From the IMG/VR virus record IMGVR_UViG_3300002223_000006, positions 1-37,061 of that record: 37,061 nucleotides of DNA, one strand, 5' to 3'. This stretch comes from a virus. Position numbers and translations under genes: made by a program. The notes below the pieces were generated by a model. It worked only from the letters and a program-made list of their open reading frames with translations. It did not search any database and was not told the origin of the DNA. Below are positions 244 through 37,061 of this stretch, piece by piece; position 1 is the stretch's first letter, and every line of letters begins with the position of its first letter.

Positions 244-739
244 GAAACAACTACCCCTTGATCCTCGGCAAGAAAACTGTCTTGCATATTACTTTGATCC
301 GAAAAGCTCTACTTTCAGCGATCTTAAAAACAGCGCATTGAGGGCTGGATTTACTGAATCATACGCGGATAATCTCTTTCATCTTCTACCAGATTGGCTC
401 TCGGACGCTATCGGGCAACATAAGATGCTTTCCAAAGCCGAAAGAAACCTTGACCAGATGTTAGATTTAAAAACAGAACAACCCATTTTAATAAATAAAG
501 AATTAGTGGTTGATGATAACGGAAACGCTGTTGAAGTAACTAATCCGGCGCTTCTCCGAACGAAAGCAGATGTAACTATGTTTGTAGCTGAAAGACTCGG
601 CAAAAAAAAATACTCTCAACGTAATGAGAGTGTGGTTGTTGATATAAATTTAAAAGATATAATTGATGCCAAACAAGTCAAACGAATTGCCCGAAGAATA
701 CTTAATGGTAATCCAAAGGGCGAGGGAAAATCTGATTGA
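236..739 (+). CDS. terS: Terminase small subunit (probable)
   Basis: This 167-residue protein lies directly before the large terminase. The N-terminal part contains a stretch like LKNSALRAGFTESYADN (about residues 30-46). It resembles the HTH of phage small terminases, where a helix with A-x-x-A-G-(F/Y)-x-x-x-x-A recognises the packaging site. The middle is helical and probably mediates oligomerisation. The C-terminus is Arg/Lys-rich. It overlaps the large terminase reading frame by up to 77 nt, an unusually long overlap that suggests the large subunit may start later (see that entry). Identity rests on position and the HTH-like motif. Confidence 0.75.
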   Translation: MAKKQLPLDPRQENCLAYYFDPKSSTFSDLKNSALRAGFTESYADNLFHLLPDWLSDAIGQHKMLSKAERNLDQMLDLKTEQPILINKELVVDDNGNAVEVTNPALLRTKADVTMFVAERLGKKKYSQRNESVVVDINLKDIIDAKQVKRIARRILNGNPKGEGKSD

Positions 740-3113: not shown

Positions 3114-3114
3114 T

Positions 3115-3258
3115 TTAAGGGTGGCCGCCGGGGCGCGTAACCTTTCGTAAAGAGTTTCGGTTACCACCCTTAAAAAGTTTTCCACAGTGTCTTTTTTCAA
3201 AGACGTATCATAATTAAGTTAAGAGAACTCTTTATTATTAAAAAACTTGAAACTCTTT
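3115..3258 (+). promoter_or_regulatory. Intergenic RNA structure with interleaved inverted repeats
   Basis: Arm A (3115-3124, TTAAGGGTGG) pairs perfectly with A' (3164-3173). Inside its loop, AAAGAGTTTC (3149-3158) is a perfect 10-nt complement of GAAACTCTTT (3249-3258), which ends 13 nt before the ATG at 3272. The order A-B-A'-B' is that of a pseudoknot or a pair of competing folds. An inner alternative GTAACC/GGTTAC pair (3137-3142/3159-3164) competes with A'. There is no U-run directly after A', so a simple terminator is not obvious. A DnaA-box-like TTTTCCACA lies at 3178-3186. Confidence 0.55.
3178..3186 (+). promoter_or_regulatory. DnaA-box-like site
   Basis: TTTTCCACA in the spacer between terminase and 3272, matching TTWTNCACA. 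Confidence 0.3.
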
Positions 3259-3271
3259 CAGGTTATTTTTT

Positions 3272-3900: not shown

Positions 3901-5702
3901 CAAAGGATATTTTTGATTTTGTTATTGAGCAGGAAGCGGGTTTTTCTAAGCCGATCAGTTTAGTGGATGGCTGGAATTGGAATTGGAAAACACATATTCG
4001 TCGCTCGCTTTTGTATAAGAACTCGCAATTTGAGGAAGCCAACGATGACCGGAAGGATCGTCCTTTTAAAAATATTGTGCGCCCGATTTTAAACGTGCAG
4101 TATCGCACTGAAGGTTTTGACGTGAAAGATATAGAACTTTATGTAAATGACGCCCAAAATTACCATAAGTCCTTTTTAACTAAGAAATTTCACGAAGACT
4201 GGGCTTTGGAAAACGAGATGGACACGTTTATTGATGAATTAGTGGAATCCTATGTTGATTACGGAGGCGCTTTGGTAAAAAACGTCGATGATGTGAGGCC
4301 AGAGGTTGTAAATCTCCAAACCATTGCTTTTTGCGACCAGACTAATTTTCTTTCCGGACCGTTTGCGATTAAGCATTATTTTTCTCCATCAGAATTAAGG
4401 AATATGGGAAAACAGGGTTGGGGTGAGAAGAGTAAAGGCGCGACGTTTGACCTTGAAACCTTAATTAAACTCTCCGAACCAAGAAAAACACAAGAAAAAC
4501 AAAATGAACCAAGTACAACGCCGGGGAAATACATTGAGGTTTATGAAGTACACGGTTCATTTCCCGCTAACTGGTTAAGTTATGAAAACTACACCGAGGG
4601 CAAATATGAGTCGCAGATTCATATTGTCGCTTTTTACAAGAATCAAGCCGATGAACAAACTGGGGTTTGTCTTTTTAAAGTCAAAGAACCAAAACTGCCT
4701 TTTAAATTTTTAAAACGTGATCCGATCTTTGGTAGAGCATTAGGATTTGGTGGAGTCGAAGAGCTTTTTGATTCGCAGGTTTGGACGAACTCCTCCGAGA
4801 TTTACATAATGGAAATGCTTAATCTTGCCTCTAAGACTTTATATAAAACTACTGATCCGGCGTTTAAGAACCGTAATAAAATAACTGATTTGGATAACGG
4901 CGAAATATTATCTGTATTAGAAGGACGAGATATTGGGCAGCTTGAAACTACTCCGAGGAATCTTCCTGTATTCGTAGACGCCGTAAATAGATGGGAGGAG
5001 CACGCCAGTAGAATGGGTGCTTCAAGCGAAGCTTTAATGGGACAAGCACCGACTGCTGGCACTCCGTTTAAACTTTTTGAGGCGCAGATTATAGAAGATA
5101 AAGGGCTTCATCGTTACCGACAAGGCAAGATCGCTGTATTTGTAGATGGAATTTATCGAGATTGGATTTTGCCTTATATCACGAGGGAAATAACTAAGGG
5201 TAAAAGTTTTCTTTCTGAACTCTCATCAGATGAATTACAAATGATCGCAGATAAAGTTTCCATGAATGAAGCTAATCGCCAAGCGGTGGAAAAGATATTA
5301 AACGGCGAGCTTATTTTTCCCGAAGAAATGGACATGGTGAAAGAGAAAACGCGCATGGAGTTTTTACAGGGCGGATCAAAAAGATTTATTGAGATATTTA
5401 AAGATGAAATGAAGGATATTCCATTAAAAGTTAAAACGAATATTGCTGGCAAGCAAAAAAATCTCGCTCTTTTGACTGATAAGGTAGTGAACGTTCTAAG
5501 ACAATTCATAGCGACTCCGGAGATAAGACAAGACCCAGAAATGGTTAAGTTACTTAATACCATACTGGAAAGTTCGGGACTTTCTCCCATGATCTTCGGA
5601 GCCTCAAGACCTTCCCAACAGCAACAGCAAGGACAAGGAAGCACCGAGCCATTAAAAGCTTTAGCACAAGGAGCGAAAGCCCCGCAATTAAATGCTCAAT
5701 GA
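3897..5702 (+). CDS. Portal protein
   Basis: This 601-residue protein follows the terminase genes at the place and size expected of a podovirus-type portal. Portals form the dodecameric ring at one vertex through which DNA passes. Features seen are an Asp/Trp-rich N-terminus (WNWNWKTHIRR), a middle with FGRALGFGGVEELFDSQVW followed by long helices (about 285-330), and a polar Gln-rich C-terminus (QQQQQGQG) that is likely the disordered crown or barrel end. The small gene at 5692 overlaps its 3' end. Family naming rests on size, order and this general pattern, since portals diverge strongly in sequence. Confidence 0.8.
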   Translation: MTKDIFDFVIEQEAGFSKPISLVDGWNWNWKTHIRRSLLYKNSQFEEANDDRKDRPFKNIVRPILNVQYRTEGFDVKDIELYVNDAQNYHKSFLTKKFHEDWALENEMDTFIDELVESYVDYGGALVKNVDDVRPEVVNLQTIAFCDQTNFLSGPFAIKHYFSPSELRNMGKQGWGEKSKGATFDLETLIKLSEPRKTQEKQNEPSTTPGKYIEVYEVHGSFPANWLSYENYTEGKYESQIHIVAFYKNQADEQTGVCLFKVKEPKLPFKFLKRDPIFGRALGFGGVEELFDSQVWTNSSEIYIMEMLNLASKTLYKTTDPAFKNRNKITDLDNGEILSVLEGRDIGQLETTPRNLPVFVDAVNRWEEHASRMGASSEALMGQAPTAGTPFKLFEAQIIEDKGLHRYRQGKIAVFVDGIYRDWILPYITREITKGKSFLSELSSDELQMIADKVSMNEANRQAVEKILNGELIFPEEMDMVKEKTRMEFLQGGSKRFIEIFKDEMKDIPLKVKTNIAGKQKNLALLTDKVVNVLRQFIATPEIRQDPEMVKLLNTILESSGLSPMIFGASRPSQQQQQGQGSTEPLKALAQGAKAPQLNAQ

Positions 5703-6683: not shown

Positions 6684-6684
6684 A

Positions 6685-6729
6685 ATGCCAAAAAAGAAAA
6701 AAAAGAAAAAGGTCAAAATAACTTATTAA
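6685..6729 (+). CDS. Possible 14-residue Lys-rich peptide
   Basis: A short frame, ATG CCA followed by seven Lys codons and ending ITY, sits just after the previous gene's stop. It may be translated by read-on ribosomes, but poly-Lys runs arise easily in A-rich spacer DNA and there is no supporting context. Confidence 0.2.
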   Translation: MPKKKKKKKVKITY

Positions 6730-6742
6730 CTTAACAACAATT

Positions 6743-6874
6743 ATGAATCCAGCAATAAAATTAGGTTCTCTCAAGGACAAATTGCTTGAAAAAGACAAGA
6801 GAGAGCCGATCAAAATAGCAAAACCAAAAAAGGTTAAAAGGTCGGTGAAATTGGGAAAAAGTAAACGAAAATGA
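6743..6874 (+). CDS. Small very basic protein
   Basis: This 43-residue protein is rich in Lys and Arg (KLLEKDKREPIKIAKPKKVKRSVKLGKSKRK). Its TGA overlaps the ATG at 6871, the coupling pattern used across this genome, which supports it being real although it is short. Pro-Lys repeats suggest an unstructured, nucleic-acid-binding tail. It could be packaged with DNA or act as an RNA chaperone, but nothing identifies it. Confidence 0.55.
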   Translation: MNPAIKLGSLKDKLLEKDKREPIKIAKPKKVKRSVKLGKSKRK

Positions 6875-9881: not shown

Positions 9882-9887
9882 CTTGTG

Positions 9888-9933
9888 ATCTTACCCTTTC
9901 GGGGTAAGATTCGGGGCTTGCTAACGAGCCTCG
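9888..9933 (+). terminator. Two hairpins after the capsid gene
   Basis: ATCTTACCC (9888-9896) pairs with GGGTAAGAT (9902-9910). A second stem pairs 9912-9918 with 9927-9933 (seven pairs, one G.U). Neither is followed by a proper U-run, so they may be processing or stability elements, or weak terminators shielding the abundant capsid message. The loop bases TTCGGG can also pair with CCCGAA just before the next ATG. Confidence 0.5.
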
Positions 9934-9948
9934 AAATTTATCCCGAAC

Positions 9949-18577: not shown

Positions 18578-18644
18578 TCCGCTCTAGGTACCTCCAACAA
18601 ATTATGGCTATAAGCCCTAAAGCAAACCCGCCTAAAATTATCAT
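18567..18644 (-). CDS. Possible tiny membrane peptide on the opposite strand
   Basis: On the minus strand a 25-residue frame reads MIILGGFALGLIAIICWRYL and ends ERINL. It is one hydrophobic helix followed by a positively charged end. An AGGA sequence lies 7 nt before its ATG. It fills the only gap between the ejection genes and the next structural gene and overlaps the end of the upstream gene by 11 nt. It would be the only minus-strand gene in the window, so chance cannot be excluded. Confidence 0.25.
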   Translation of the reverse strand: MIILGGFALGLIAIICWRYLERINL

Positions 18645-18658
18645 ATACACATCCTACC

Positions 18659-26158: not shown

Positions 26159-26161
26159 TAC

Positions 26162-26184
26162 GCGGGGTTTCGACCCGACCCCGC
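26162..26184 (+). terminator. GC-rich hairpin after the lysis cassette
   Basis: GCGGGGT (26162-26168) pairs with ACCCCGC (26178-26184). An inner alternative GGGT/ACCC is possible. No U-run follows, so it is likely part of a two-hairpin end together with the terminator at 26221. Confidence 0.5.
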
Positions 26185-26220
26185 AGGAGTCCGAATAAGG
26201 CTCCAGTAAATTAACTAATT

Positions 26221-26250
26221 AGCCTTCCGATATGGAAGGCTTTTAGTTTT
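26221..26250 (+). terminator. Rho-independent terminator
   Basis: AGCCTTCC, a 5-nt GATAT loop and GGAAGGCT form an 8-bp perfect stem followed by TTTAGTTTT. This is the strongest terminator in the window and closes the late operon after the secreted transglycosylase. Confidence 0.85.
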
Positions 26251-26254
26251 CCAC

Positions 26255-26263
26255 TTTTCCACA
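26255..26263 (+). promoter_or_regulatory. DnaA-box-like site
   Basis: TTTTCCACA fits the consensus TTWTNCACA and a near-match (TTTTCCACT) lies just upstream at 26247. Similar sites are at 3178, 27511 and 32957. Confidence 0.35.
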
Positions 26264-26294
26264 AGATATATTTCTATAAAGTTTTAAAATTAAA

Positions 26295-26465
26295 TAAGAA
26301 CTCTTACACCTGCTGGCGACGGACAAGTTTGTTTTTCATAGTTTTTTGATTTCTTGTCCCCTCGACCTTGTCGCCGGCGGGTTTGAGAGCTTTAAGAAGG
26401 GTAGCCAGCCCCCAATGTAGCACATGTGTATCAGAAAGGGCGGGCTATCATTCTGAGAGTTCTTA
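26295..26465 (+). ncRNA. Large multibranched structured RNA, unknown class
   Basis: This region between the terminator and the next ORF folds by eye into a closed multibranch. The outer stem TAAGAACTCT (26295-26304) pairs perfectly with AGAGTTCTTA (26456-26465). The first branch pairs 26312-26320 with 26370-26378 and 26321-26327 with 26353-26359, with a 10-nt bulge. The second branch pairs 26402-26411 with 26438-26447 (nine pairs and one mismatch). The sequence is far GC-richer than its surroundings and has no ORF. It sits directly upstream of a well-marked start (GGAGG before ATG 26487), so it may be a leader RNA or independent small RNA. I do not recognise the class. Confidence 0.7.
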
Positions 26466-26486
26466 AAAAGAGAGGAGGACGAACCA

Positions 26487-26561
26487 ATGGATGAAATAAC
26501 TATTTTGATATATCTCATCGGCGTAATATCGGGGCTCATCTTGTTTGGAGGCGACCTATGA
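26487..26561 (+). CDS. Tiny single-span membrane protein
   Basis: This 24-residue peptide is mostly one hydrophobic helix (MDEITILIYLIGVISGLILF, ending GGDL). It has one of the best Shine-Dalgarno sites in the window (GAGGAGG, 8 nt before ATG) and its stop overlaps the next start (ATGA). It follows the structured RNA. The strong initiation signal makes it likely real; function unknown. Confidence 0.65.
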   Translation: MDEITILIYLIGVISGLILFGGDL

Positions 26562-27731: not shown

Positions 27732-28286
27732 ATGCGTTGGTATGAAAATGGGAAATATATGGGCCAATTTTCCTTAAAAGAAAATTCCCCAAAGAGAAAG
27801 TACAAACACACTTGGGAGTATAGAAAAAATAAATACGTCAGGCCGTTCGTTCTTAAAGTCATCGTTCCCGCCGCAATCTTATTCGCTATCGGAGCGATCA
27901 TCGCTCCGGCCGCCATAAAACGCGACAAAGAAGCTTATGAAGCGTACACAGTAAGAGAAGCCGAGGCGAACATTGAAATTGTTGATGAGAGTCCGGCGGC
28001 AGTCTTGGGAAGAATTGCGGAAGCGGAAAGTTGGAACAGCCATTATTGCACGGAAAAAATAGTTAAACTAGGCGGATGTCCAAAAGGAGCAATTGGGCAA
28101 GTGTTAGTAAACAAAACTCTTGATGTCGGTCGCTACGCTATTAATTTAACCTACAACGGAAAATGGTGTGCGGATCGAGGCTATGACATCTTTAAAGAAA
28201 AGGATAATGAGGAATGTGCTAAAGAATTATTTAACGAAAGAGGGAGCACCCCTTGGGATGCCAGCAGGAATAAGTGGAATAAATAA
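27732..28286 (+). CDS. Membrane-anchored lysozyme-like protein
   Basis: This 184-residue protein has a basic N-terminal cytoplasmic part and one transmembrane helix (about 39-62, FVLKVIVPAAILFAIGAIIAPAAI). An external lysozyme/SLT-like domain follows. RIAEAESWNSHYC gives candidate catalytic Glu97 or Glu99. Further Cys are in GGCPKG, KWCADR and NEECAKE. The end ERGSTPWDASRNKW matches the G-T-x-P-W-x-x-S end of small CPR lysozymes. Early location, away from the lysis cassette, suggests a role in cell-wall remodelling or superinfection exclusion. Confidence 0.75.
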   Translation: MRWYENGKYMGQFSLKENSPKRKYKHTWEYRKNKYVRPFVLKVIVPAAILFAIGAIIAPAAIKRDKEAYEAYTVREAEANIEIVDESPAAVLGRIAEAESWNSHYCTEKIVKLGGCPKGAIGQVLVNKTLDVGRYAINLTYNGKWCADRGYDIFKEKDNEECAKELFNERGSTPWDASRNKWNK

Positions 28287-28287
28287 C

Positions 28288-28500
28288 ATGGAACTCAAAC
28301 AAAGACTCTTAGCCGAGTATTACAAAAAAGACTGTCCCGACTTAAAAGCAATCACCGAAAACGGAGAATATATAATTAAGCTCGGAGATCTCGAAGTATT
28401 GAGATACTCCGACCGGACTACGGGAATGCTCGCGAGTTGGTACATCCAAGAGAAAGTCCAACAGGAGGGATATAAACCAGTCGTACATTATCAGGAATAA
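28288..28500 (+). CDS. Hypothetical early protein
   Basis: This 70-residue protein (ATG at 28288, one base after the previous stop) has a helical start (MELKQRLLAEYYKKDCPDLKA) and a small beta part. No family is recognised. It ends exactly where the interleaved RNA structure begins (TAA 28498-28500). Confidence 0.65.
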   Translation: MELKQRLLAEYYKKDCPDLKAITENGEYIIKLGDLEVLRYSDRTTGMLASWYIQEKVQQEGYKPVVHYQE

Positions 28501-28575
28501 CCCTTGCGTCGAGCAATCTGTCGTAGATTAAGGCCCAAGGTCACTCACTCGCAAGGGGAGTTTCTACGACAGATT
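28501..28575 (+). ncRNA. Pseudoknot-type RNA element before the recombination genes
   Basis: Arm A CCCTTGCG (28501-28508) pairs with CGCAAGGG (28550-28557). Arm B AATCTGTCGTAGA (28515-28527) pairs perfectly, 13 bp, with TCTACGACAGATT (28563-28575). The order A-B-A'-B' means both stems can only form together as a pseudoknot, with loops of 6, 22 and 5 nt. The ATG at 28597 follows 21 nt later with no Shine-Dalgarno; a GGAG lies in the third loop (28557-28560) and can also pair with CTCC at 28577-28580. Confidence 0.7.
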
Positions 28576-28596
28576 TCTCCAATTATTTCTAACAAC

Positions 28597-29214
28597 ATGA
28601 ACATGCCTAACCAAGCCATTCAGGCTCCTATCGGTACAAAGGAAATTGAAGTTTATAAAAAAGAAATTACCAAAGCTGAGAAATTCAGCTTATCTCTCGA
28701 AGTCAAGACGCAGGAGGATTATGAAACAGCTCTTGCCGAGGGAAAGGATATAAAAACCAAGCTCGACACAATTACCCGTCGAAAAGAAGAAATAACGAAG
28801 CCCCTCAATGCCGCCTTAAAAAGCGCGCGCGATCTCTTCAAGCCCTTGGAATCAGCCGGCGAAACCGCTCTCGCAACGATCAAGCGTAAAATGCTCGACT
28901 ATACGAACGAGCAGGAACGCAAAGCAAATGAGGCCAAGCTTAAATTGGCTGAGCGCGTCGAGCGCGGGACCATGAAAGCGGAGACCGCCGTCCGCAAGAT
29001 TGAGGCAATCCAAGAGCCTCAAACCACAGTCAAAACCGATCAGGGTAAAGCCACCACGAAAACCGTGAAGAAATACCGAGTCACCGATAAATCGCTTATC
29101 CCATATGTTTTCATGGAGCCCAATATGACAGCCATTAAACAATCATTTAAAGACGGGCAACCCGTACCCGGAGTCGAGGAATACGAGGAAAAGGAATTAT
29201 CACTTTACAATTAA
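28597..29214 (+). CDS. Coiled-coil protein of the recombination module
   Basis: This 205-residue protein starts at the ATG of MNMPNQAIQAPIGTKEIEVYKKEI. Residues 30-135 form a long helix with EEITKPLNAALKSARDLFKPLESAGETALATIKRKML, wording of a phage coiled-coil family that often neighbours ERF/RecT-like annealing proteins. The C-terminal part (about 150-205) is a small domain with KTVKKYRVTDKSLIPYVFMEPNMTAIKQSFKDG. It is likely an accessory of the annealing system. The next gene begins 3 nt downstream. Confidence 0.6.
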   Translation: MNMPNQAIQAPIGTKEIEVYKKEITKAEKFSLSLEVKTQEDYETALAEGKDIKTKLDTITRRKEEITKPLNAALKSARDLFKPLESAGETALATIKRKMLDYTNEQERKANEAKLKLAERVERGTMKAETAVRKIEAIQEPQTTVKTDQGKATTKTVKKYRVTDKSLIPYVFMEPNMTAIKQSFKDGQPVPGVEEYEEKELSLYN

Positions 29215-29217
29215 CCT

Positions 29218-29928
29218 ATGGCGAATCCAAAACGGCAACTCATCGTTTCTACTCCGGTGTCTCTGATGACACCGGTAGTGATGAAACAGCAGTTAGAGGT
29301 TGAGAGTCAAAAACGTAAGCTACTCACTGAATATATCAACCGGCACATGAAGAAGGGCATTGATTATGGACAGATTGAAATCGTGAGCAAGCGGACTGGG
29401 AAAACCTACGTTTCAAAGCCCACGCTTTTTAAGCCAGGTGCGGAGAAATTTTGCTCCTTGTTCCGTATCCGGGCTGAGTATTCCAAGGATGATGAAACTT
29501 GGGAAATGTTAGGACGAGAATCTAAATACATTTGCTATATATGCCGCCTCTATAACGGCGAGATACTTGTCGGCGAGGGGCGAGGTGTCTGTACGGTCGC
29601 GGAGAAAGACGGGTCGGCAAATAACGCCGTGAAGATAGCCAAGAAGCGCGCCAAGTTGGATGCGGTTTTAGAAACCGGAGGATTGTCTGAATTTTTTACT
29701 CAGGACCTAGAGGACGAAATCGATCCAATGCCAGCTCGTAAGAAGACTCAAAACGTCTTTCAGGAAGCCGAACGAATGATCACTGCCTCAAAATTGATTG
29801 ATAATCTGCTTACCATTGGCGACCGCATTATCGCTTCTGAAAAATTTACGCCCGACCAAAAGGGGAAATTACAGGCCAAAATAACTGCCCGCCTTGATGA
29901 ACTCGAAGCCGAGGCCAAAGCAAAATAG
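29218..29928 (+). CDS. Single-strand annealing protein (probable)
   Basis: This 236-residue protein has HMKKGIDYGQIEIVSKRTGK followed by KPTLFKPGAEKFCSLFRI, a motif common in a family of phage annealing or recombination proteins. It also has beta segments with YICRLYNGEILVGEGRGVCT and NNAVKIAKKRAKLDAVLETGG. The C-terminus is helical and charged (LIDNLLTIGDRIIAS). It would coat and anneal ssDNA during replication. It overlaps the nuclease gene by 32 nt. Assignment is by motif and context. Confidence 0.6.
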   Translation: MANPKRQLIVSTPVSLMTPVVMKQQLEVESQKRKLLTEYINRHMKKGIDYGQIEIVSKRTGKTYVSKPTLFKPGAEKFCSLFRIRAEYSKDDETWEMLGRESKYICYICRLYNGEILVGEGRGVCTVAEKDGSANNAVKIAKKRAKLDAVLETGGLSEFFTQDLEDEIDPMPARKKTQNVFQEAERMITASKLIDNLLTIGDRIIASEKFTPDQKGKLQAKITARLDELEAEAKAK

Positions 29929-30520
29929 CTTTCTCCCCCGAGGTTATTTATCCGCCACTCAAATCATTCTCGTTAATCGAAATCCCGAGGAGTACGTTCG
30001 CCGGTATATCTACGGCGAGGAGAGTCGAACGTCCGAGTACATGGAGCTAGGAAAGCTTGTGGCCGACGTGTTCGACGGCAAGCGCACAGATCCCGCCGCC
30101 GAAGCCATTAAAGAGTTTATCCCTAAATACAAGAAGCGGGAGCATGGGATTTCATGCCAGCTGAAGCAAAGTGGCGAGGCATTTATCCTGAAAGGGGTTC
30201 TCGACGGGTACAACCCCAAAACCTCAGTCCAAGGCGAATATAAAACAAGCACAAAGAGGTGGACGCCAAGACAGGTCTATACGAATCTTCAACTCAGGAT
30301 CTATGCCCTAATTCATTATAAAAATACCGGCGCCATCCCCCAGCAAGAATTGACCTGGATAGGAACCAAATTTGAAGATGGCGAACTCATCTTGTCCGGG
30401 GAGTTCGAAACTCACAGCGTCCAATACACTTTAAAAGAAATGCTCGAAACGGAAGCGGAAACGTGGAGGGCATTTAAAAAGATTATCAGCTTAGTAAAAC
30501 ACGAATATGACAAGATTTAA
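29897..30520 (+). CDS. PD-(D/E)XK nuclease, Cas4/RecB-like
   Basis: This 207-residue protein starts at ATG 29897 (a TTG one codon earlier is in frame). The motif LSATQIILVNRNPEEYVRRYIYGEE near the start is typical of RecB-family nucleases. The active site reads KGVLDGYNPKTSVQGEYKTSTKRW, with Asp, Glu and Lys in D-x(n)-ExK order, followed by NLQLRIYALIHY. No iron-sulfur Cys cluster. It is probably the exonuclease partner of the annealing protein, forming a RecET/Red-like recombination pair. Confidence 0.75.
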   Translation: MNSKPRPKQNSFLPRGYLSATQIILVNRNPEEYVRRYIYGEESRTSEYMELGKLVADVFDGKRTDPAAEAIKEFIPKYKKREHGISCQLKQSGEAFILKGVLDGYNPKTSVQGEYKTSTKRWTPRQVYTNLQLRIYALIHYKNTGAIPQQELTWIGTKFEDGELILSGEFETHSVQYTLKEMLETEAETWRAFKKIISLVKHEYDKI

Positions 30521-30746
30521 CGTGGTCACCAAGAAAACCTATCAAGGAAAAGACGGTGAAAAAGCCCAGTGGCTCAATGTCGGGTCTCTGATTAGATTTC
30601 CGGCCACGGGAGAAAAAGACGAAAGTTTTATCTTGGAACTAAATATGTTCCCGAGCACTAAATTTTACGTCTTTGAGCAGAAGAAAAAGGCTGTAAAACA
30701 GGAAAGGTTGGATGATGAGCCGCCGATAGACGATATTCCTTTCTAA
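30507..30746 (+). CDS. SSB-like protein with acidic C-terminal tip
   Basis: This 79-residue protein has a short beta region (FNVVTKKTYQGKDGEKAQWLNVGSLIRF and ESFILELNMFPSTKFYVFEQ) and ends with DDEPPIDDIPF. The final (D)DIPF is the binding tip that bacterial SSBs use to contact replication and repair proteins. It is shorter than a full OB-fold SSB (about 110 residues of fold), so it may be a compact phage ssDNA-binding protein. The DDIPF tip and place in the recombination module are persuasive. Confidence 0.75.
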   Translation: MTRFNVVTKKTYQGKDGEKAQWLNVGSLIRFPATGEKDESFILELNMFPSTKFYVFEQKKKAVKQERLDDEPPIDDIPF

Positions 30747-30747
30747 C

Positions 30748-31044
30748 ATGCAACAGACGAGTATTAAAACTTATCACGACGAAATCCTGCCTACGCTCGG
30801 AGCGAGGCAGGAAGCCGTCTTAAAACAGTTTGCAGATACAGATCATGGCTTTACCAATTCCGAGCTTGCTATGAGGCTAGGGTGGCCTATCAACACGGTT
30901 ACGCCGCGAGTCTATGAGCTAAGACGACTAAAAGTTTTAGAAGAATGTTGCAAACGAGCGTGTCGGGTAACCGGTCGCAGGGTGATTTGTTGGAAAATTA
31001 AATTACCGGAGCCGGAACAGCTCACGCTAAATGCACTGGGGTAA
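30748..31044 (+). CDS. Winged-helix DNA-binding protein
   Basis: This 98-residue protein has GARQEAVLKQFADTDHGFTN, then SELAMRLGWPINTVTPRVYELRRLKVLEE, a winged HTH with recognition helix INTVTPRVYELRRLK and wing (RRVICWKIKL). Cysteines CCKRAC are near the wing. It starts 1 nt after the SSB-like gene and overlaps the next by 14 nt. It probably regulates transcription or loads at the origin. Confidence 0.75.
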   Translation: MQQTSIKTYHDEILPTLGARQEAVLKQFADTDHGFTNSELAMRLGWPINTVTPRVYELRRLKVLEECCKRACRVTGRRVICWKIKLPEPEQLTLNALG

Positions 31045-31393
31045 AGTAAAGCTCCGCTATACCGACACTCTTTTCTCAAAATACCTTCGAAAAAAAAGAG
31101 GTTACTTCTGCGAGAAATGCAGAAGGTTCTATCCCAAAGGCCACGGCCTCACCCTCTCCCATTTCTGGATTCGATCTAAAGAATCCGTAAGATTTGATGA
31201 CGAAAATTGTGATATTCTTTGCATTCCCTGTCATCAATATTTCGAGGAACATAAGACCGAATACACGGAATGGAAGAAAGAAAGAATGGGCGAGAAGATG
31301 TTTAACCTCCTAATGCTCCGAGCGCACCGGCCCGGAAAGAGAGATGACGCGATCACACTTATTTGGCTTAAACAATTAATCAATGAATCTTAA
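31031..31393 (+). CDS. NinG-like/HNH recombination nuclease
   Basis: This 120-residue protein has CEKCRRFYPKGHGLTLSHFWIRSK and CDILCIPCHQYFEEHKTEYTEWK. Two Cys pairs surround a LTLSHF core and HQYFEEH, as in lambda NinG-like (Rap) proteins and other HNH folds that resolve branched DNA. The middle WIRSKESVRFDDEN matches the usual segment between Cys pairs. It overlaps the previous winged-helix gene and the NinB-like gene, so recombination genes form one unit. Confidence 0.75.
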   Translation: MHWGKVKLRYTDTLFSKYLRKKRGYFCEKCRRFYPKGHGLTLSHFWIRSKESVRFDDENCDILCIPCHQYFEEHKTEYTEWKKERMGEKMFNLLMLRAHRPGKRDDAITLIWLKQLINES

Positions 31394-31796
31394 AGAACCA
31401 ATCAAATTTCAGACCACCTTTGAGAAAGGAATTTTAAAGCTCACCGATTACAGTATATTTATGCTTTCTAGGTATGAACCTTCTAAAGTGTGGGTTACAG
31501 TCGAGCCGGTCAAGAGCCACCGGAGTACGAATCAAAACGCTTACTATTGGGCCGTGGTCATCCCCTTATTTTGCGAGAAGACCGGCTACGCTCCTGCGGC
31601 CATGGACAGAGTCTTTGAACAAGAATTTTGTCCGAGGAAAGTCCTAAAGTGGAGAGGGAGAGATATTATCACAATCAAACACTGTAAGGATTTATCGAAA
31701 GGAGAGTTTGTGGAATTTTTGGATAAGGTAATTGCGGAGGCCGGAGAACTTGGAATCAACATACCATCTCCAAATTTCGAACATCAGGTGAAATAG
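31383..31796 (+). CDS. NinB-like recombination protein
   Basis: This 137-residue protein has HRSTNQNAYYWAVVIPLFCEK, resembling the (R)RS.xQN..YW motif of NinB/Orf proteins that bind ssDNA and assist recombination. The C-terminal half has LSKGEFVEFLDKVIAEAGELGINIPSP, typical of the family. It is coupled to the NinG-like gene by an 11-nt overlap. The 48-nt spacer after it leads into the interleaved RNA structure. Confidence 0.75.
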   Translation: MNLKEPIKFQTTFEKGILKLTDYSIFMLSRYEPSKVWVTVEPVKSHRSTNQNAYYWAVVIPLFCEKTGYAPAAMDRVFEQEFCPRKVLKWRGRDIITIKHCKDLSKGEFVEFLDKVIAEAGELGINIPSPNFEHQVK

Positions 31797-31843
31797 TTGT
31801 GCACAGTTGCGATTTAAACATTGGAGGTATGATTGAGATATGA

Positions 31844-31918
31844 ACACTTACGCTGGACAGATTAAGAATTTCAAGAGCCACATCGGGAAACTTATCAGCG
31901 TAAGTGTCCGGTGTGGCT
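31844..31918 (+). ncRNA. Pseudoknot-type RNA element before the replication gene
   Basis: Arm A ACACTTACGCTG (31844-31855) pairs perfectly, 12 bp, with CAGCGTAAGTGT (31896-31907). Arm B AGCCACATCGG (31876-31886) pairs with CCGGTGTGGCT (31908-31918), 11 bp with one G.U. A' and B' are directly adjacent, giving a coaxial pseudoknot. TTTT follows B', so B:B' alone could act as a terminator, with A:A' as a competing fold. The ATG at 31934 has no Shine-Dalgarno. A 40-codon frame with an upstream GGAGG (31823-31827) starts at 31840 and runs through the structure to 31962; it may be a leader peptide or chance. Confidence 0.75.
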
Positions 31919-31933
31919 TTTTAAGTTTTGAAT

Positions 31934-33267: not shown

Positions 33268-34335
33268 ATGAAAGCATACAAAATATTTGACCATAACTGG
33301 AAGTGTAAAGATTTTCAGTTTGAAGTGGGGAAAGAGTACACCTATGAAGGAAAGCTCGAAATCTGCGAAAGCGGATTTCATGCTTGTTTAAAATTGGAAG
33401 ATTGCTTCAAGTATTACAAAGCAGTTTCTTGGAACAAGATTGCAGAGGTTGAGATATTGGGAAAAAGTATAACTCACGATGAAGACAGCAAAATTGTAAC
33501 CGATAAAATTAAAATTGTAAGAGAAATAGGATGGCAAGAACTCGAAGAAGTTTATAACGACATCTATGGAGCCAGCAACATCAGTGGAGGAAACAACATC
33601 TGGGGAGCCAGCAACATCAGTGGAGGAAGCAACATCCGTGGAGGAAACTATATCTATGGAGCCAGCAACATCAGGGGAGGAAACAACATCAATGGAGGAA
33701 ACTACATCAATGGAGGAAGCAACATCCGTGGAGGAAGCTATATCTGGGGAGCCAGCAACATCAGGGGAGGAAACTACATCAATGGAGGAAACTACATCAG
33801 TGGAGGAAATGACATCAGTGGAGGAAATGACATCAGTGGAGGAAATGACATCAGTGGAGGAAATGACATCTGGGGAGGAAACTACATCAGTGGAGGAAAT
33901 GACATCAGGGGAGGAAACTACATCAGGGGAGGAAATTACATCAGGGGAGGAAATGACATCTGGGGAGCTAAGAATTGTTATGGAGTAGATTCAGCAATCT
34001 TTATCGCAAACAAAAAAAGACAACCGACTATCTTCGGGAAGAAAGTTACACAAAAAAGATTTGATGAGGTATTTCAAAAACTCAATTCTTTCAACTGGTA
34101 TCCGAAATTCAATAATGCTTTTGATTTTTATTTACAGAAAGGGAACGACTGGGAAAAAGTTCCGGCAGATTTAATCGCGCCAAAAACCAATAAAGAGGCG
34201 TGGGCGGATATTCCTGTCCCTATGAAAAATTATATTTCTTCTTTAAAAGAATACGATAAAAAGACTTTTAAAGAAATCACCGAAATTGATTTGCCAAAAA
34301 ACTCAAATTTGATTTTTTTTCTAAAGATGAGATGA
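33268..34335 (+). CDS. DUF7666-like protein with 23 hexapeptide repeats
   Basis: This 355-residue protein has three parts. Residues 1-90 (YKIFDHNWKCKDFQFEVGKEYTYEGKLEICESGFHACLKLEDCFKYY) resemble a domain common in phage proteins, DUF7666-like. Residues 99-236 are 23 hexads of form I-x-G-(G/A)-(N/S)-x, such as ISGGND and IRGGNY, probably a beta-solenoid. Residues 237-355 form a helical C-terminal domain. The central DNA is made of 18-bp repeats and is open in a second frame too. Proteins of this plan are often found in phages of uncultivated bacteria; role unknown, perhaps a DNA-mimic or binding scaffold. Confidence 0.75.
   Translation: MKAYKIFDHNWKCKDFQFEVGKEYTYEGKLEICESGFHACLKLEDCFKYYKAVSWNKIAEVEILGKSITHDEDSKIVTDKIKIVREIGWQELEEVYNDIYGASNISGGNNIWGASNISGGSNIRGGNYIYGASNIRGGNNINGGNYINGGSNIRGGSYIWGASNIRGGNYINGGNYISGGNDISGGNDISGGNDISGGNDIWGGNYISGGNDIRGGNYIRGGNYIRGGNDIWGAKNCYGVDSAIFIANKKRQPTIFGKKVTQKRFDEVFQKLNSFNWYPKFNNAFDFYLQKGNDWEKVPADLIAPKTNKEAWADIPVPMKNYISSLKEYDKKTFKEITEIDLPKNSNLIFFLKMR
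33562..33975 (+). repeat. Tandem array of 18-bp repeats
   Basis: There are 23 units of ATC-nnn-GGA-(GGA/GCC)-(AAC/AGC/AAT)-nnn. Two codons per unit vary freely (AGT, AGG, CGT, AAT, TGG, TAT in the first; AAC, TAC, GAC, TAT in the last). Four consecutive units at about 33800-33870 are identical (AGT and GAC), a sign of recent expansion. Confidence 0.95.
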
Positions 34336-34372: not shown

Positions 34373-34567
34373 ATGAACGAAAAAACATTCACCTACGAAT
34401 ACATAGAAACAATGGAAGAAGTGAGAAAGCACATACAACAATGTGAGGGGAAACATTCCCAGCAAGTCGCATACTCAACTTTCCACGACGCGCTTACTCA
34501 AATTTGCTTCGGCTGTAAGATGATTCGCTCGATGATTAAAAGACAACATGAACCCCCTCAAAAGTGA
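34373..34567 (+). CDS. Small hypothetical protein
   Basis: This 64-residue protein is helical and hydrophilic, with a CFGC near the C-terminus (ICFGCKMIRSM), perhaps half of a zinc site. It overlaps the next gene by 20 nt. The preceding A-rich spacer (34336-34372) has no visible Shine-Dalgarno. Confidence 0.6.
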   Translation: MNEKTFTYEYIETMEEVRKHIQQCEGKHSQQVAYSTFHDALTQICFGCKMIRSMIKRQHEPPQK

Positions 34568-34838
34568 AATGAAAAAAATTAAACACATTCATCGCTGGTC
34601 AAATTGGTGGAAAGTAAAAGCCGATAATTCTATGGAACGACTTTGTTTGGCGTGTGGAGAAATCCAAAATGCGGGAAGAGTGAACAGAGTTATTATGGGC
34701 TGGGCATTGTCTAATCGTAGGAACGGTATGAGTTGCCACACCGCACAAATGCCTATTTATTGGAATAGAAATGTCGCGGAAAAGTACGCAAAAGAATGGG
34801 GCGAAAACCTAAAACAAGTAAAGATTTTAATTCTCTAA
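34548..34838 (+). CDS. Small protein, MNPLKSEM N-terminal family
   Basis: This 96-residue protein starts MNPLKSEMKKIKHIHRW and has CLACGE. The N-terminal eight residues recur in the ORF at 35298 and, as MK(D/N)LKSE, in 35646 and 36251. The DNA behind it (CCCCTCAAAAGTGAAATGAA) is nearly the same as in the duplicated leaders, so the N-terminus looks like a translated leader. Possible zinc knuckle with Cys and His. Function unknown. Confidence 0.6.
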   Translation: MNPLKSEMKKIKHIHRWSNWWKVKADNSMERLCLACGEIQNAGRVNRVIMGWALSNRRNGMSCHTAQMPIYWNRNVAEKYAKEWGENLKQVKILIL

Positions 34839-34839
34839 T

Positions 34840-34872
34840 CCCCCCTCAAAGGAGTATAATTAAGGAAAATAT
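34840..34872 (+). repeat. Duplicated leader, copy 1
   Basis: The leader consists of a C6TCAAAGGAG block, TATAATTAAGG and AAAATAT directly before ATG 34873. It holds a perfect Shine-Dalgarno core AAGGAG and a TATAAT -10 box. Copies occur at 35131 and 35938, and a diverged one at 36220. Confidence 0.8.
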
Positions 34873-35130
34873 ATGAAAGAAGAAAAGAAAATAAAATTAG
34901 TTTGTGTGTCGTGGTTAGACGCCCACAATATGGAAAACTGGCAAGAAAGGAGAGATGTTTTGGAGTTAGCTGAAAAATCCTTTAAGGAAGATAATAGAAC
35001 ATTCGGAGAAATGATAGCGGAAACAAAAGATTATGTTGTCGTGGCAACCAACTTTAGCCCGCAAAAAGATTTAATCGCAGACGCAATGATGATACCCAGA
35101 AAAATGATAAGAAAAATAAAGTATTACTAA
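34873..35130 (+). CDS. Small protein, MKEEKK family
   Basis: This 85-residue protein begins MKEEKKIKLVCVSWLDAHNMENWQERRDVLEL. It is alpha/beta without Cys pairs. The first six residues are shared with 35161 and 35968. It is expressed from leader copy 1. No known domain. Confidence 0.65.
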   Translation: MKEEKKIKLVCVSWLDAHNMENWQERRDVLELAEKSFKEDNRTFGEMIAETKDYVVVATNFSPQKDLIADAMMIPRKMIRKIKYY

Positions 35131-35160
35131 CCCCCCTCAAAGGAGTATAATTAAGGAAAT
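35131..35160 (+). repeat. Duplicated leader, copy 2
   Basis: Almost identical to copy 1 (34840) but one AAT shorter before the ATG at 35161. The C6TCAAAGGAG, TATAATTAAGG order is kept. Confidence 0.8.
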
Positions 35161-35301
35161 ATGAAAGAAGAAAAGAAACATAGGCATAAATGGGAGCAGG
35201 TATTTTATGATTGTGGATTTTGCGGAGGGGGAGAGGCTTACGAATGTGAATGTGGCGAAGTTAAAAATAGGTCGGTTACCACTCAAGAAAAGAAAATATG
35301 A
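35161..35301 (+). CDS. Small zinc-finger protein, MKEEKK family
   Basis: This 46-residue protein reads MKEEKKHRHKWEQVFYDCGF and continues CGGGEAYECECGEVKN, giving four Cys (DCGFCGG, ECECG) for one zinc. It has leader copy 2. The stop overlaps the next ATG (ATGA). Confidence 0.6.
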   Translation: MKEEKKHRHKWEQVFYDCGFCGGGEAYECECGEVKNRSVTTQEKKI

Positions 35302-35378
35302 ACCCCCTCAAAAGTGAAATGAAAGAAGAATTTATCAAATTAAACGGCTCGCAACCTACTGCGGAAAAATATGTATGA
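35298..35378 (+). CDS. Mini-ORF of the MNPLKSEM family
   Basis: This 26-residue frame begins with MNPLKSEMKEEF, identical for eight residues to the protein at 34548. It ends just as the next gene (35371) begins. It may be a degenerate paralogue reduced to its N-terminus, or a leader peptide coupling to 35371. Confidence 0.45.
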   Translation: MNPLKSEMKEEFIKLNGSQPTAEKYV

Positions 35379-35649
35379 AGATAAATTATCAGAGCCAGTA
35401 AGGGAAACGGAAATTAACAGGGCTTTTGGGAAATTGTTTTCCGTAATCGAAATGTGTCAAAAGGAAGCCGAAACACTTATTGAGCGATTATCGCCAGTGT
35501 TAAGTGGCGGCGGAGTATCACAAGGAAGCGATAAAGCAAAAACACCGGAGTTTTCTTCTGGGCTTGCACAAGAAATAAATAAAGCCATAGTTAGAATTGA
35601 TGATTTGGCTAGTAGAATTAGAGAAACACGAAATCGAGTTGAGTTATGA
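35371..35649 (+). CDS. Small helical protein
   Basis: This 92-residue protein has helices INRAFGKLFSVIEMCQKEAETLIERL and LAQEINKAIVRIDDLASRIRETRNRV with a Gly/Ser loop (SGGGVSQGSDK) between. The outline resembles a helical hairpin. It overlaps the previous mini-ORF by 8 nt and the next gene by 4 nt. No family recognised. Confidence 0.6.
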   Translation: MYEDKLSEPVRETEINRAFGKLFSVIEMCQKEAETLIERLSPVLSGGGVSQGSDKAKTPEFSSGLAQEINKAIVRIDDLASRIRETRNRVEL

Positions 35650-35933
35650 AAGACCTCAAAAGTGAAATGAAAGAAGAAAAGAAACATCAATGCGATGTAT
35701 GCGATAAAGAAAGGGCGGAAAACCTTGTTGTCTGTTCGGATAATTGTGTGGAAATTCGTCAAATGATATTTGACTTGGAAAAAGAGTATTTCCCTACTAA
35801 TGGTTGTGATAATTGCTGGGGCGACCTACATCAAGGTTGTTCAGAGAAATGCAAAAAAGAGTTTGACGAGTTATTAAAATTCGGAACGAAATTGTGGAAA
35901 CTGGTTCACTTTATTACAAAACACAAAAGATAA
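35646..35933 (+). CDS. Zinc-finger protein, MKDLKSEMKEEKK N-terminus
   Basis: This 95-residue protein starts MKDLKSEMKEEKKHQCDVCD, joining both repeated N-terminal pieces seen in this array. It has C-x2-C, a CSDNC and NGCDNCWG..QGCSEKC, so at least two zinc sites. The Cys arrangement with acidic helix (EIRQMIFDLEKEYFP) suggests a protein-binding or nucleic-acid zinc finger. Confidence 0.65.
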   Translation: MKDLKSEMKEEKKHQCDVCDKERAENLVVCSDNCVEIRQMIFDLEKEYFPTNGCDNCWGDLHQGCSEKCKKEFDELLKFGTKLWKLVHFITKHKR

Positions 35934-35937
35934 CCTC

Positions 35938-35967
35938 CCCCCCTCAAAGGAGTATAATTAAGGAAAT
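35938..35967 (+). repeat. Duplicated leader, copy 3
   Basis: Same 30-nt leader as copy 2, before ATG 35968. The C-run is seven long here, one more than in copies 1 and 2, pointing to slippage. Confidence 0.8.
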
Positions 35968-36219
35968 ATGAAAGAAGAAAAGAAAAATTGCGGAAAAATC
36001 TATACAGACAAGCACGGAAATAAGGGTGCTACTTGTGCTAACTTTTTGCCTTGTAATTCCGACCACTTAATTGCTGAACCAGAACCAGTTTGTCTTCACG
36101 AATTTCGCTATTCACATATTGAATATCCACCAATGGGGACATACACTGCTATCCCGCCAAATAAGGAAGTTGTCATCTGTCCAAAGTGCGGAGAATTAAG
36201 AAAAACAATAGTAATCTAA
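35968..36219 (+). CDS. Zinc-binding protein, MKEEKK family
   Basis: This 83-residue protein begins MKEEKKNCGKIYTDKHGNKGATC. It has CPKCGEL near the C-terminus and Cys at NCGK, ATC, PC and VCLHE, a probable two-site zinc protein. It is expressed from leader copy 3. Unrelated downstream of the shared N-terminus to the other family members. Confidence 0.65.
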   Translation: MKEEKKNCGKIYTDKHGNKGATCANFLPCNSDHLIAEPEPVCLHEFRYSHIEYPPMGTYTAIPPNKEVVICPKCGELRKTIVI

Positions 36220-36250
36220 CCCCCTCCGAGAAGGAGTTAATTAAGAAAAC
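36220..36250 (+). repeat. Diverged leader, copy 4
   Basis: C5TCCGAGAAGGAGTTAATTAAG is followed by AAAAC before ATG 36251. The Shine-Dalgarno remains but TATAAT has become GTTAAT, so promoter function is probably lost. Confidence 0.65.
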
Positions 36251-36616
36251 ATGAAAAACCTCAAAAGTGAAATCTTAGAAGATTTTGTTAAAAGATTTGA
36301 TTATCCTTTTAGCATTGAAGATTATAAAAGTGGGACAATAGGGAAAATGCTCAAATCTTTCCTCTCCGAATCCTTAGACAAAATAGAACGGGCGGCATAC
36401 GACCAAGGGCACCAAGACGGAGCGTCAGACCAAAGAATGGCTATCATCAAGATTGCAGAGGGGATGATGACGCTAGAAAAAAGTATAGAATATCTCAAGC
36501 GTTGTGATGAAAGCTTACTCACGCCCGAAGGCATCCAACTTCTCCAAGAGCAATCACAAGAAGTTGGCTACAACCAAGTCATAGCCGACCTTATCAAGAA
36601 AATCTCCGAAATATGA
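36251..36616 (+). CDS. Helical protein, MKNLKSE N-terminus
   Basis: This 121-residue protein begins MKNLKSEILEDFVKRFDYPF and is largely helical (MLKSFLSESLDKIERAAYDQGHQDGASDQR, ESLLTPEGIQLLQEQSQEVGYNQVIADL). It lacks Cys pairs. Its N-terminus is the third version of the LKSE motif. Its stop overlaps the ATG of the next gene. Confidence 0.6.
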   Translation: MKNLKSEILEDFVKRFDYPFSIEDYKSGTIGKMLKSFLSESLDKIERAAYDQGHQDGASDQRMAIIKIAEGMMTLEKSIEYLKRCDESLLTPEGIQLLQEQSQEVGYNQVIADLIKKISEI

Positions 36617-36865: not shown

Positions 36866-37044
36866 AAGGAATGAACGAGGGGACTTTACTTAAACTGATG
36901 AGCCGGATCGAATGTTACATTTGCGGAAAATGGTTTCCCGAACACGCGAAGAAATGCTCCCACTGCGGGGCGGTGAATGAAGATTATAAGCCCCTGCCAA
37001 AAAACGCTTGGCCGTTAGCGAGAAGAAATGGAAAAATCACCTGA
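36862..37044 (+). CDS. Zinc-ribbon protein (complete copy)
   Basis: This 60-residue protein starts at the ATG 1 nt before the previous stop. It reads MKGMNEGTLLKLMSRIECYI, then CGKWFPEHAKKCSHCGAV, giving C-x2-C-x11-C-x2-C. The C-terminus is basic and Pro-rich. Its 3' half recurs at 3-74 because the circular contig is cut here. The next gene starts inside its end (37028). Confidence 0.75.
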   Translation: MKGMNEGTLLKLMSRIECYICGKWFPEHAKKCSHCGAVNEDYKPLPKNAWPLARRNGKIT

Positions 37045-37061
37045 CAATTTAGAACAAGCCA
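36971..37061. repeat. Right copy of 91-bp terminal direct repeat
   Basis: Identical to bases 1-91. Joining the copies gives continuous reading frames through both genes crossing the ends. Confidence 0.95.
37028..37061 (+). CDS. Start of the pre-terminase gene (3' truncated by contig end)
   Basis: The first 11 codons of the gene seen whole at 58-243. They are here only because of the terminal overlap. Confidence 0.85.
   Translation, partial: MEKSPDNLEQA

Follow-up and report, generated by a model that had tools for sequence, protein, structure and literature searches.

Intercistronic RNase processing sites are common in phage operons, and phages also carry RNA pseudoknots in the form of the type III antitoxin RNAs (ToxI). 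Among worked examples of a pseudoknot placed before a phage recombination gene, the operator of T4 gene 32 comes closest. In the account given of this operator, a pseudoknot of ~28 nt nucleates gp32, which from there extends along a leader of >40 nt that is less structured and contains UUAAA/UAAA repeats (PMC535899). Here we describe an interleaved two-stem element at 28501-28575 of a phage genome, for which a literature search found no description. The window analysed is the whole IMG/VR virus record of 37,061 bases, and all positions below refer to it. Our preferred reading, put forward tentatively at a probability of roughly 45%, is that 28501-28596 forms a cis-acting RNA between cistrons, which would modulate the downstream recombination operon post-transcriptionally.

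Results

The element fills the only sizeable gap in its gene run, ahead of recombination genes

The two ends of the window share a direct repeat of 91 bp (1-91 is identical to 36971-37061), and the phage genome is therefore probably complete. It encodes a phage terminase; phages of Porphyromonas, Bacteroides and Gordonia supply its best matches, at 34-39% identity. The virus probably has a bacterial host. The Walker A motif of the terminase large subunit (663-3113) is split by an insert of ~340 residues (PPRHGK / EIASDTLIPTPDG ... IPTHN / SQQG), which is missing from the relatives L003, L005 and L006. Judged by its ends, which we take to match intein end motifs, this insert is probably an intein.

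All genes in the run 27732-31796 lie on the + strand and are joined by 1-3 nt or by overlaps, bar one gap of 96 nt (28501-28596). This is the sole sizeable gap of the run and is occupied by the two-stem element. Upstream sits a small gene of 70 residues (28288-28500; a longer reading frame covers 28168-28500) with no family match above cut-off, and its TAA abuts the first arm of the element. The first gene downstream (28597-29214) encodes a Gp157/DUF1351-like protein, matching phrog_10477 (E 4.8e-11), a family that carries the name 'exonuclease', and 37% identical to a gp157-like protein of MW202577. It is followed by a phrog_10048 protein (29218-29928), a PD-(D/E)XK nuclease-like protein (29894-30520; Pfam E 0.0026, below cut-off), a protein of 79 residues (30507-30746), a NinG/Rap-type HNH endonuclease (31031-31393) and a NinB/Orf recombination mediator (31383-31796). 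An earlier reading made from the sequence alone (the sequence-only reading) had placed the element ahead of a recombination operon. The NinG/Rap, NinB/Orf and weak PD-(D/E)XK matches lying 3' of it, together with the Gp157/DUF1351-like and phrog_10048 genes, bear this out and make the name a fair one.

A predicted dominant hairpin with a possible pseudoknot

The sequence-only reading had described interleaved A-B-A'-B' stems of 8 bp and a perfect 13 bp, with loops of 6, 22 and 5 nt, and this description is exact to the base. Arm A (28501-28508, CCCTTGCG) starts directly after the upstream stop codon and is linked by the 6-nt loop 1 to arm B (28515-28527, AATCTGTCGTAGA). Loop 2 (28528-28549, 22 nt) leads to arm A' (28550-28557, CGCAAGGG) and the 5-nt loop 3 to arm B' (28563-28575, TCTACGACAGATT), all on the + strand. 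All 21 pairs of the two stems are Watson-Crick, with no G-U, and stem B is extendable to 17 nt at 94% (28511-28527/28563-28579), closing a loop of 35 nt. A mostly unpaired, A/U-rich leader of 21 nt (28576-28596) separates the element from the ATG, and the fold of 28576-28660 has a z of 0.06.

In nested ensembles the pairing probability of B was 0.88-0.98 and that of A at most 0.08. The pseudoknot reached -32.0 kcal/mol, obtained by a common shortcut that adds the energy of the A duplex and an assumed penalty of 8.1 to that of a fold in which A stays unpaired, compared with -31.7 kcal/mol for the nested fold. In these models hairpin B dominates, and A gains about as much as it costs. The A:A' pseudoknot beside B is predicted to be possible rather than proven, and we place it at about even odds. 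Reasoning from the layout, the geometry seems to permit A to lie alongside B through the 6- and 5-nt links. Of the H-type pseudoknot proposed earlier, the two interleaved stems and their energetic feasibility stand, but the loops are not all short, as loop 2 spans 22 nt and its local hairpin pairs compete with A.

Searching Rfam gave no match for the window at gathering scores, and none for 28480-28620 up to E 5. HDV-like, hammerhead and tandem ToxI-type RNAs were considered by eye and dropped given the Rfam result and the lack of a fitting core or a tandem repeat. B' is followed by TCTCCAATT, in which a T-run is absent, and the element is therefore not a plain terminator. A terminator scan accepting loops of 3-8 only did not pick it.

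A B stem of 13-17 bp with a 35-nt loop, sitting between cistrons and free of a terminator tail, would also suit an element of mRNA processing or stability. The stem could then be a site for a double-strand-specific RNase or a barrier to decay, giving the two halves of the transcript separate lifetimes. We consider this explanation unlikely.

Relatives lack the arms, though some carry structured spacers at this place

A profile scan returned 21 viral loci with homologues of the downstream Gp157/DUF1351-like gene, 20 of them distinct, as L200 and L201 lie on the contigs of L028 and L027 and are alike. The starts of the homologues and their upstream ORFs (at least 40 residues) were chosen by a crude script, which gave upstream gaps of <35 nt in 9 loci and larger gaps in 12. 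The A and B arms were present at the matching place in 0 of the 21 loci, none of which is close over the whole region. As far as these relatives go, this counts against the sequence-only reading, which had looked to conservation of the arms. As the arms are shared by no relative, they offer neither covariation nor proof of selection at the RNA level, and their function is a guess. In the locus with the nearest homologue, L183 (67.7% identical over 192 residues), a small overlapping reading frame lies at the place of the element.

Other kinds of structure were observed upstream of some homologues. The best pseudoknot beat 50 of 50 shuffles in L190 and L200 and was equalled by one of 50 in L201, each with another layout. 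The most syntenic relative, L027/L028 (the same as L201/L200), carries the Gp157-like, phrog_10048, nuclease and NinB homologues in order, and a single long hairpin (MFE z about -5) takes up its 72-nt gap. L203 has strong hairpins at the same place (z -4.2). Judging from these predicted folds, structured spacers appear to recur at this place in some relatives, with different structure. The element itself is lineage-specific and not a conserved family.

Single-protein scans of viral_contigs with the 29218 and 28597 proteins found no relative, nor did a search with the two-row alignment A1, and blastn against phages gave no match; the searched sets may omit records very near the window. A search with alignment A2 supplied the best 80 of 512 viral loci and the best 80 of 302 bacterial loci.

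The other genes near the L183 homologue are ~30% identical or unmatched, compared with 68% for the downstream gene. The region is therefore mosaic, with the element at a module boundary. Such a boundary, and arms that are perfectly Watson-Crick and free of G-U, could reflect a feature of the DNA rather than the RNA, such as protein-binding inverted repeats, a cruciform or the module junction itself. However, the two arm sequences and their spacings are unlike a dimer site. Further copies were found neither in the window (B arms with up to 2 mismatches, A arms with none) nor in viral_contigs (10-base cores of the B arms, 20-50 nt apart; 0 found). We judge a DNA-level feature to be quite improbable.

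Candidate binding proteins within the operon

The model of the phrog_10048 protein has a core that weakly resembles RAD52 and Mgm101 (Z 6-7). These rows tie with unrelated chains and the Foldseek E values are >0.01, so a RAD52-like fold for this protein may serve as a weak lead only. The 79-residue protein encoded at 30507-30746 ends in DDEPPIDDIPF and has homologues in 2 of 36 virus records (47-56% identical). Its acidic C-terminal tip (DDIPF) presumably resembles the tip of SSB, and its structure model is poor (pLDDT 66).

It is possible to imagine a translational operator of the gene-32 kind, in which the pseudoknot would nucleate an SSB or annealing protein, the product of 29218 or 30507, that would then coat the leader and the start codon, repressing the operon that encodes it. 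The order of the parts (pseudoknot, unpaired leader, start) is that reported for T4 and RB69 (PMC535899), the leader is unstructured, and an ssDNA-annealing protein may be encoded within the operon. Yet the leader is 21 nt and not >40, it is devoid of UUAAA repeats, and the first gene is Gp157/DUF1351-like rather than that of a binding protein. With the RAD52 likeness weak and the model of the 30507 protein poor, we are distinctly doubtful of this explanation.

Non-random pairing, measured against shuffles and real DNA

When the whole window was shuffled 100 times under a first-order Markov model, one shuffle reached a total of 21 interleaved bp; the window itself holds two such places, the 28501-28575 element and 3114-3258. 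For the 96-nt gap, the stacking energy of the paired arms was -40.0 compared with -17.8±4.1 in shuffles, and the nested MFE was -31.7 (z -4.7); in both cases 0 of 200 shuffles were as good. We surveyed the 18 gaps of the window of at least 40 nt using 60 shuffles. The interleaved-stem energy was unmatched in four gaps, 3114-3271, 18578-18658 (a low-energy case, -13.4), 28501-28596 and 31797-31927, and was matched by a single shuffle in three more, 6684-6870, 9882-9948 and 26159-26557.

Real DNA is a harder comparison. Places with arms below 25% G+C were excluded. For interleaved stems of at least 19 bp, the density was then 14.3 per Mb across 60 stretches from related virus records (32 of the 36 records, 13 of these minus their last stretch). 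It was 31.5 per Mb for 8 named phages and 18.4 per Mb for 80 bacterial loci. Shuffles of each whole set contained 0-4. At rates of 14-32 per Mb, ~0.5 to 1.2 such places would be expected in a 37-kb window, and 2 are observed. Shuffles therefore flatter the element, which is less extreme against real DNA. A tight layout (outer loops of up to 8 nt, a middle loop of 8-40 nt and at least 20 bp) was found twice in 1.16 Mb, including 28501-28575, and not in six shuffles. The idea that interleaved elements are special to the kin of this phage was dropped, as the named phages and bacterial loci show an equally high rate.

These rates, and the lack of conservation across the 21 loci, bear on whether the arms are functionless inverted repeats that arose by chance in an untranslated spacer. 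The 0 of 200 shuffles and the rarity of the tight layout speak against chance, which we regard as very unlikely.

The gap is non-coding and unlikely to hide a ribosome site

The reading frames 28288-28500 and 28597-29214 are in the same frame, and 28501-28596 is free of stop codons between them. Because the gap thus keeps the frame of both genes, we tested whether it is read through or belongs to an extended N-terminus. The codon-usage score of the 32 codons was -0.20. The 234 in-frame coding pieces of the genome average 0.25 (sd 0.13) and every one scores higher, so the gap is non-coding. Stop-codon readthrough or an N-terminal extension, stimulated by a pseudoknot just after the stop, would exploit the shared open frame but is scarcely credible given this codon usage, the TAA stop, the missing spacer before the stem and the estimated odds of roughly 1 in 14 that an in-frame run of this length stays open by chance.

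The ATG at 28597 lacks a Shine-Dalgarno motif, as the sequence-only reading had noted. SD-like motifs precede 9 of 54 starts. Shuffling the upstream sequence 500 times gives an expectation of 7.0 and at most 14, so there is no genome-wide excess and a start of this kind is the rule here. The same reading had envisaged control through a GGAG buried in loop 3 (28557-28560). Three of its bases (GAG) lie in that loop, the leading G being the 3' end of arm A', and the nearest downstream ATG, GTG or TTG is the one at 28597, 36 nt on. Pairing ends at 28575, with 21 nt left before the ATG, and the start region is of only average openness (rank 18 of 47), which does not fit an occluded start. Taken together, the lack of an SD excess, the distance of the GGAG and the average openness make it unlikely that the fold hides a ribosome site.

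Other structures in the window

Another interleaved element (31844-31921) closely follows the recombination operon and precedes a DnaD-like gene, with stems of 12 and 14 bp including G-U and loops of 16, 8 and 1 nt. Its energy is -48.0 compared with -20.2 (sd 2.5) in shuffles, 0 of 200 being as good. The 3' stem B:B' ends in GGCTTTTTAAGTTTT and so resembles an intrinsic terminator; its loop (A') would pair with the upstream arm A. The same type of layout, A, spacer, B, short loop and A' abutting B', usually with a T-run, was seen with unrelated letters in L006 (16112-16180, where a separate terminator follows), L032 (5740-5800), L086 (1257-1331), L195 (about 4225-4310) and L197 (about 3928-4000). 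Strong cases number one each in 5 of 32 virus records. The strict layout occurs 10 times in real sequence and 1-5 times in six shuffles, or 6 and 0-2 times with a T-tail; by a looser count it is not special to the kin of this phage. By eye, the element of L197 precedes a primase-polymerase-like gene and that of L086 an HNH gene and then a DnaD-like gene. Were A:A' and B:B' mutually exclusive, this layout would be an attenuator-like switch.

Interleaved stems of 11 bp and 10-12 bp, with a further long imperfect hairpin, follow the terminase (3093-3258); none was seen by eye in L002-L006, 5 of the 15 loci returned by a terminase search. The gap 9882-9948, after a possible major capsid gene (weak phrog_267 match), contains two adjacent strong hairpins (MFE z -9.0; 0 of 60 shuffles). 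An array of 18-bp repeats (33466-34022) lies within the ORF 33268-34335 and encodes NISGGN-like repeats, and leaders of the form CCCCCCTCAAAGGAGTATAATTAAGGAAA...ATG (3 copies) and CCTCAAAAGTGAAAT (4 copies) recur before small genes in 34540-36292.

Discussion

For the cis-acting RNA that we favour, we envisage the following mechanism. The upstream gene, the gap and the recombination genes would share one mRNA, assuming that the gap is transcribed. B:B' is predicted to form a stable 13-bp hairpin, to which A:A' could optionally add a pseudoknot along the side of B. The structure would let the recombination operon be translated and degraded separately from the upstream gene, while a short, open, A/U-rich landing site would remain before the ATG. 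A ribosome terminating at the UAA (28498-28500) would be expected to cover and unzip arm A, and without upstream translation A would be free to pair. It is possible that upstream translation toggles the pseudoknot in this way. Working as envisaged, the element would illustrate how a phage lacking Shine-Dalgarno sites can dose its recombination genes through RNA structure alone.

Several observations argue for such an RNA. The pairing is non-random, with no equal among 60 shuffles or among 200, and the codon usage is non-coding. The element occupies the only large gap in a run of + strand genes, its two folds are of equal energy, and no T-run follows. Structured spacers are also found at the same place in L027/L200 and L203. 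The reading is weakened in that the 21 of 21 Watson-Crick pairs fit a DNA-level feature or a recent inverted repeat equally well, real DNA contains interleaved stems often enough (14-32 per Mb), and the start is not unusually open. Statistically the case for the element is good; comparison with relatives adds no support. The best-supported statement is a modest one, namely that hairpin B, with A as an optional pseudoknot, separates expression of the operon from that of the upstream gene.

A bolder version would see in the element a counterpart of the T4 gene-32 operator that evolved independently. The ribosome stopping at the adjoining UAA would open part of its long-armed pseudoknot, and by way of this pseudoknot a RAD52-like annealing protein or a small SSB-like protein would repress its own operon, in a phage without Shine-Dalgarno sites. 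We see this as a long shot.

Compared with known systems, the element is of an ordinary kind and a new instance of it. It resembles the intercistronic hairpins and RNase sites of phage operons in being a stable hairpin between cistrons with no terminator tail, and differs in its second interleaved arm A:A' and in having no known cleavage. Like the MuLV-type readthrough pseudoknot, a pseudoknot-capable stretch directly follows a stop with an open frame beyond; unlike it, the element has no spacer, a TAA stop and non-coding codon usage. Unlike ToxI, it has no tandem repeats, and no adjoining toxin gene was seen. With the T4 and RB69 gene 32 operator, as far as the account of it extends, it shares a pseudoknot-capable structure before an unpaired leader on a replication or recombination transcript (PMC535899). 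On the same account it departs from T4 gene 32 in its much longer arms (8 and 13 bp, against a pseudoknot of ~28 nt), in a first gene that does not encode the binding protein and in a genome without SD use. The short leader of 21 nt, free of UUAAA repeats, means that it is not a member of the gene-32-type operators, and it might work like one if the 29218 or 30507 protein bound the leader.
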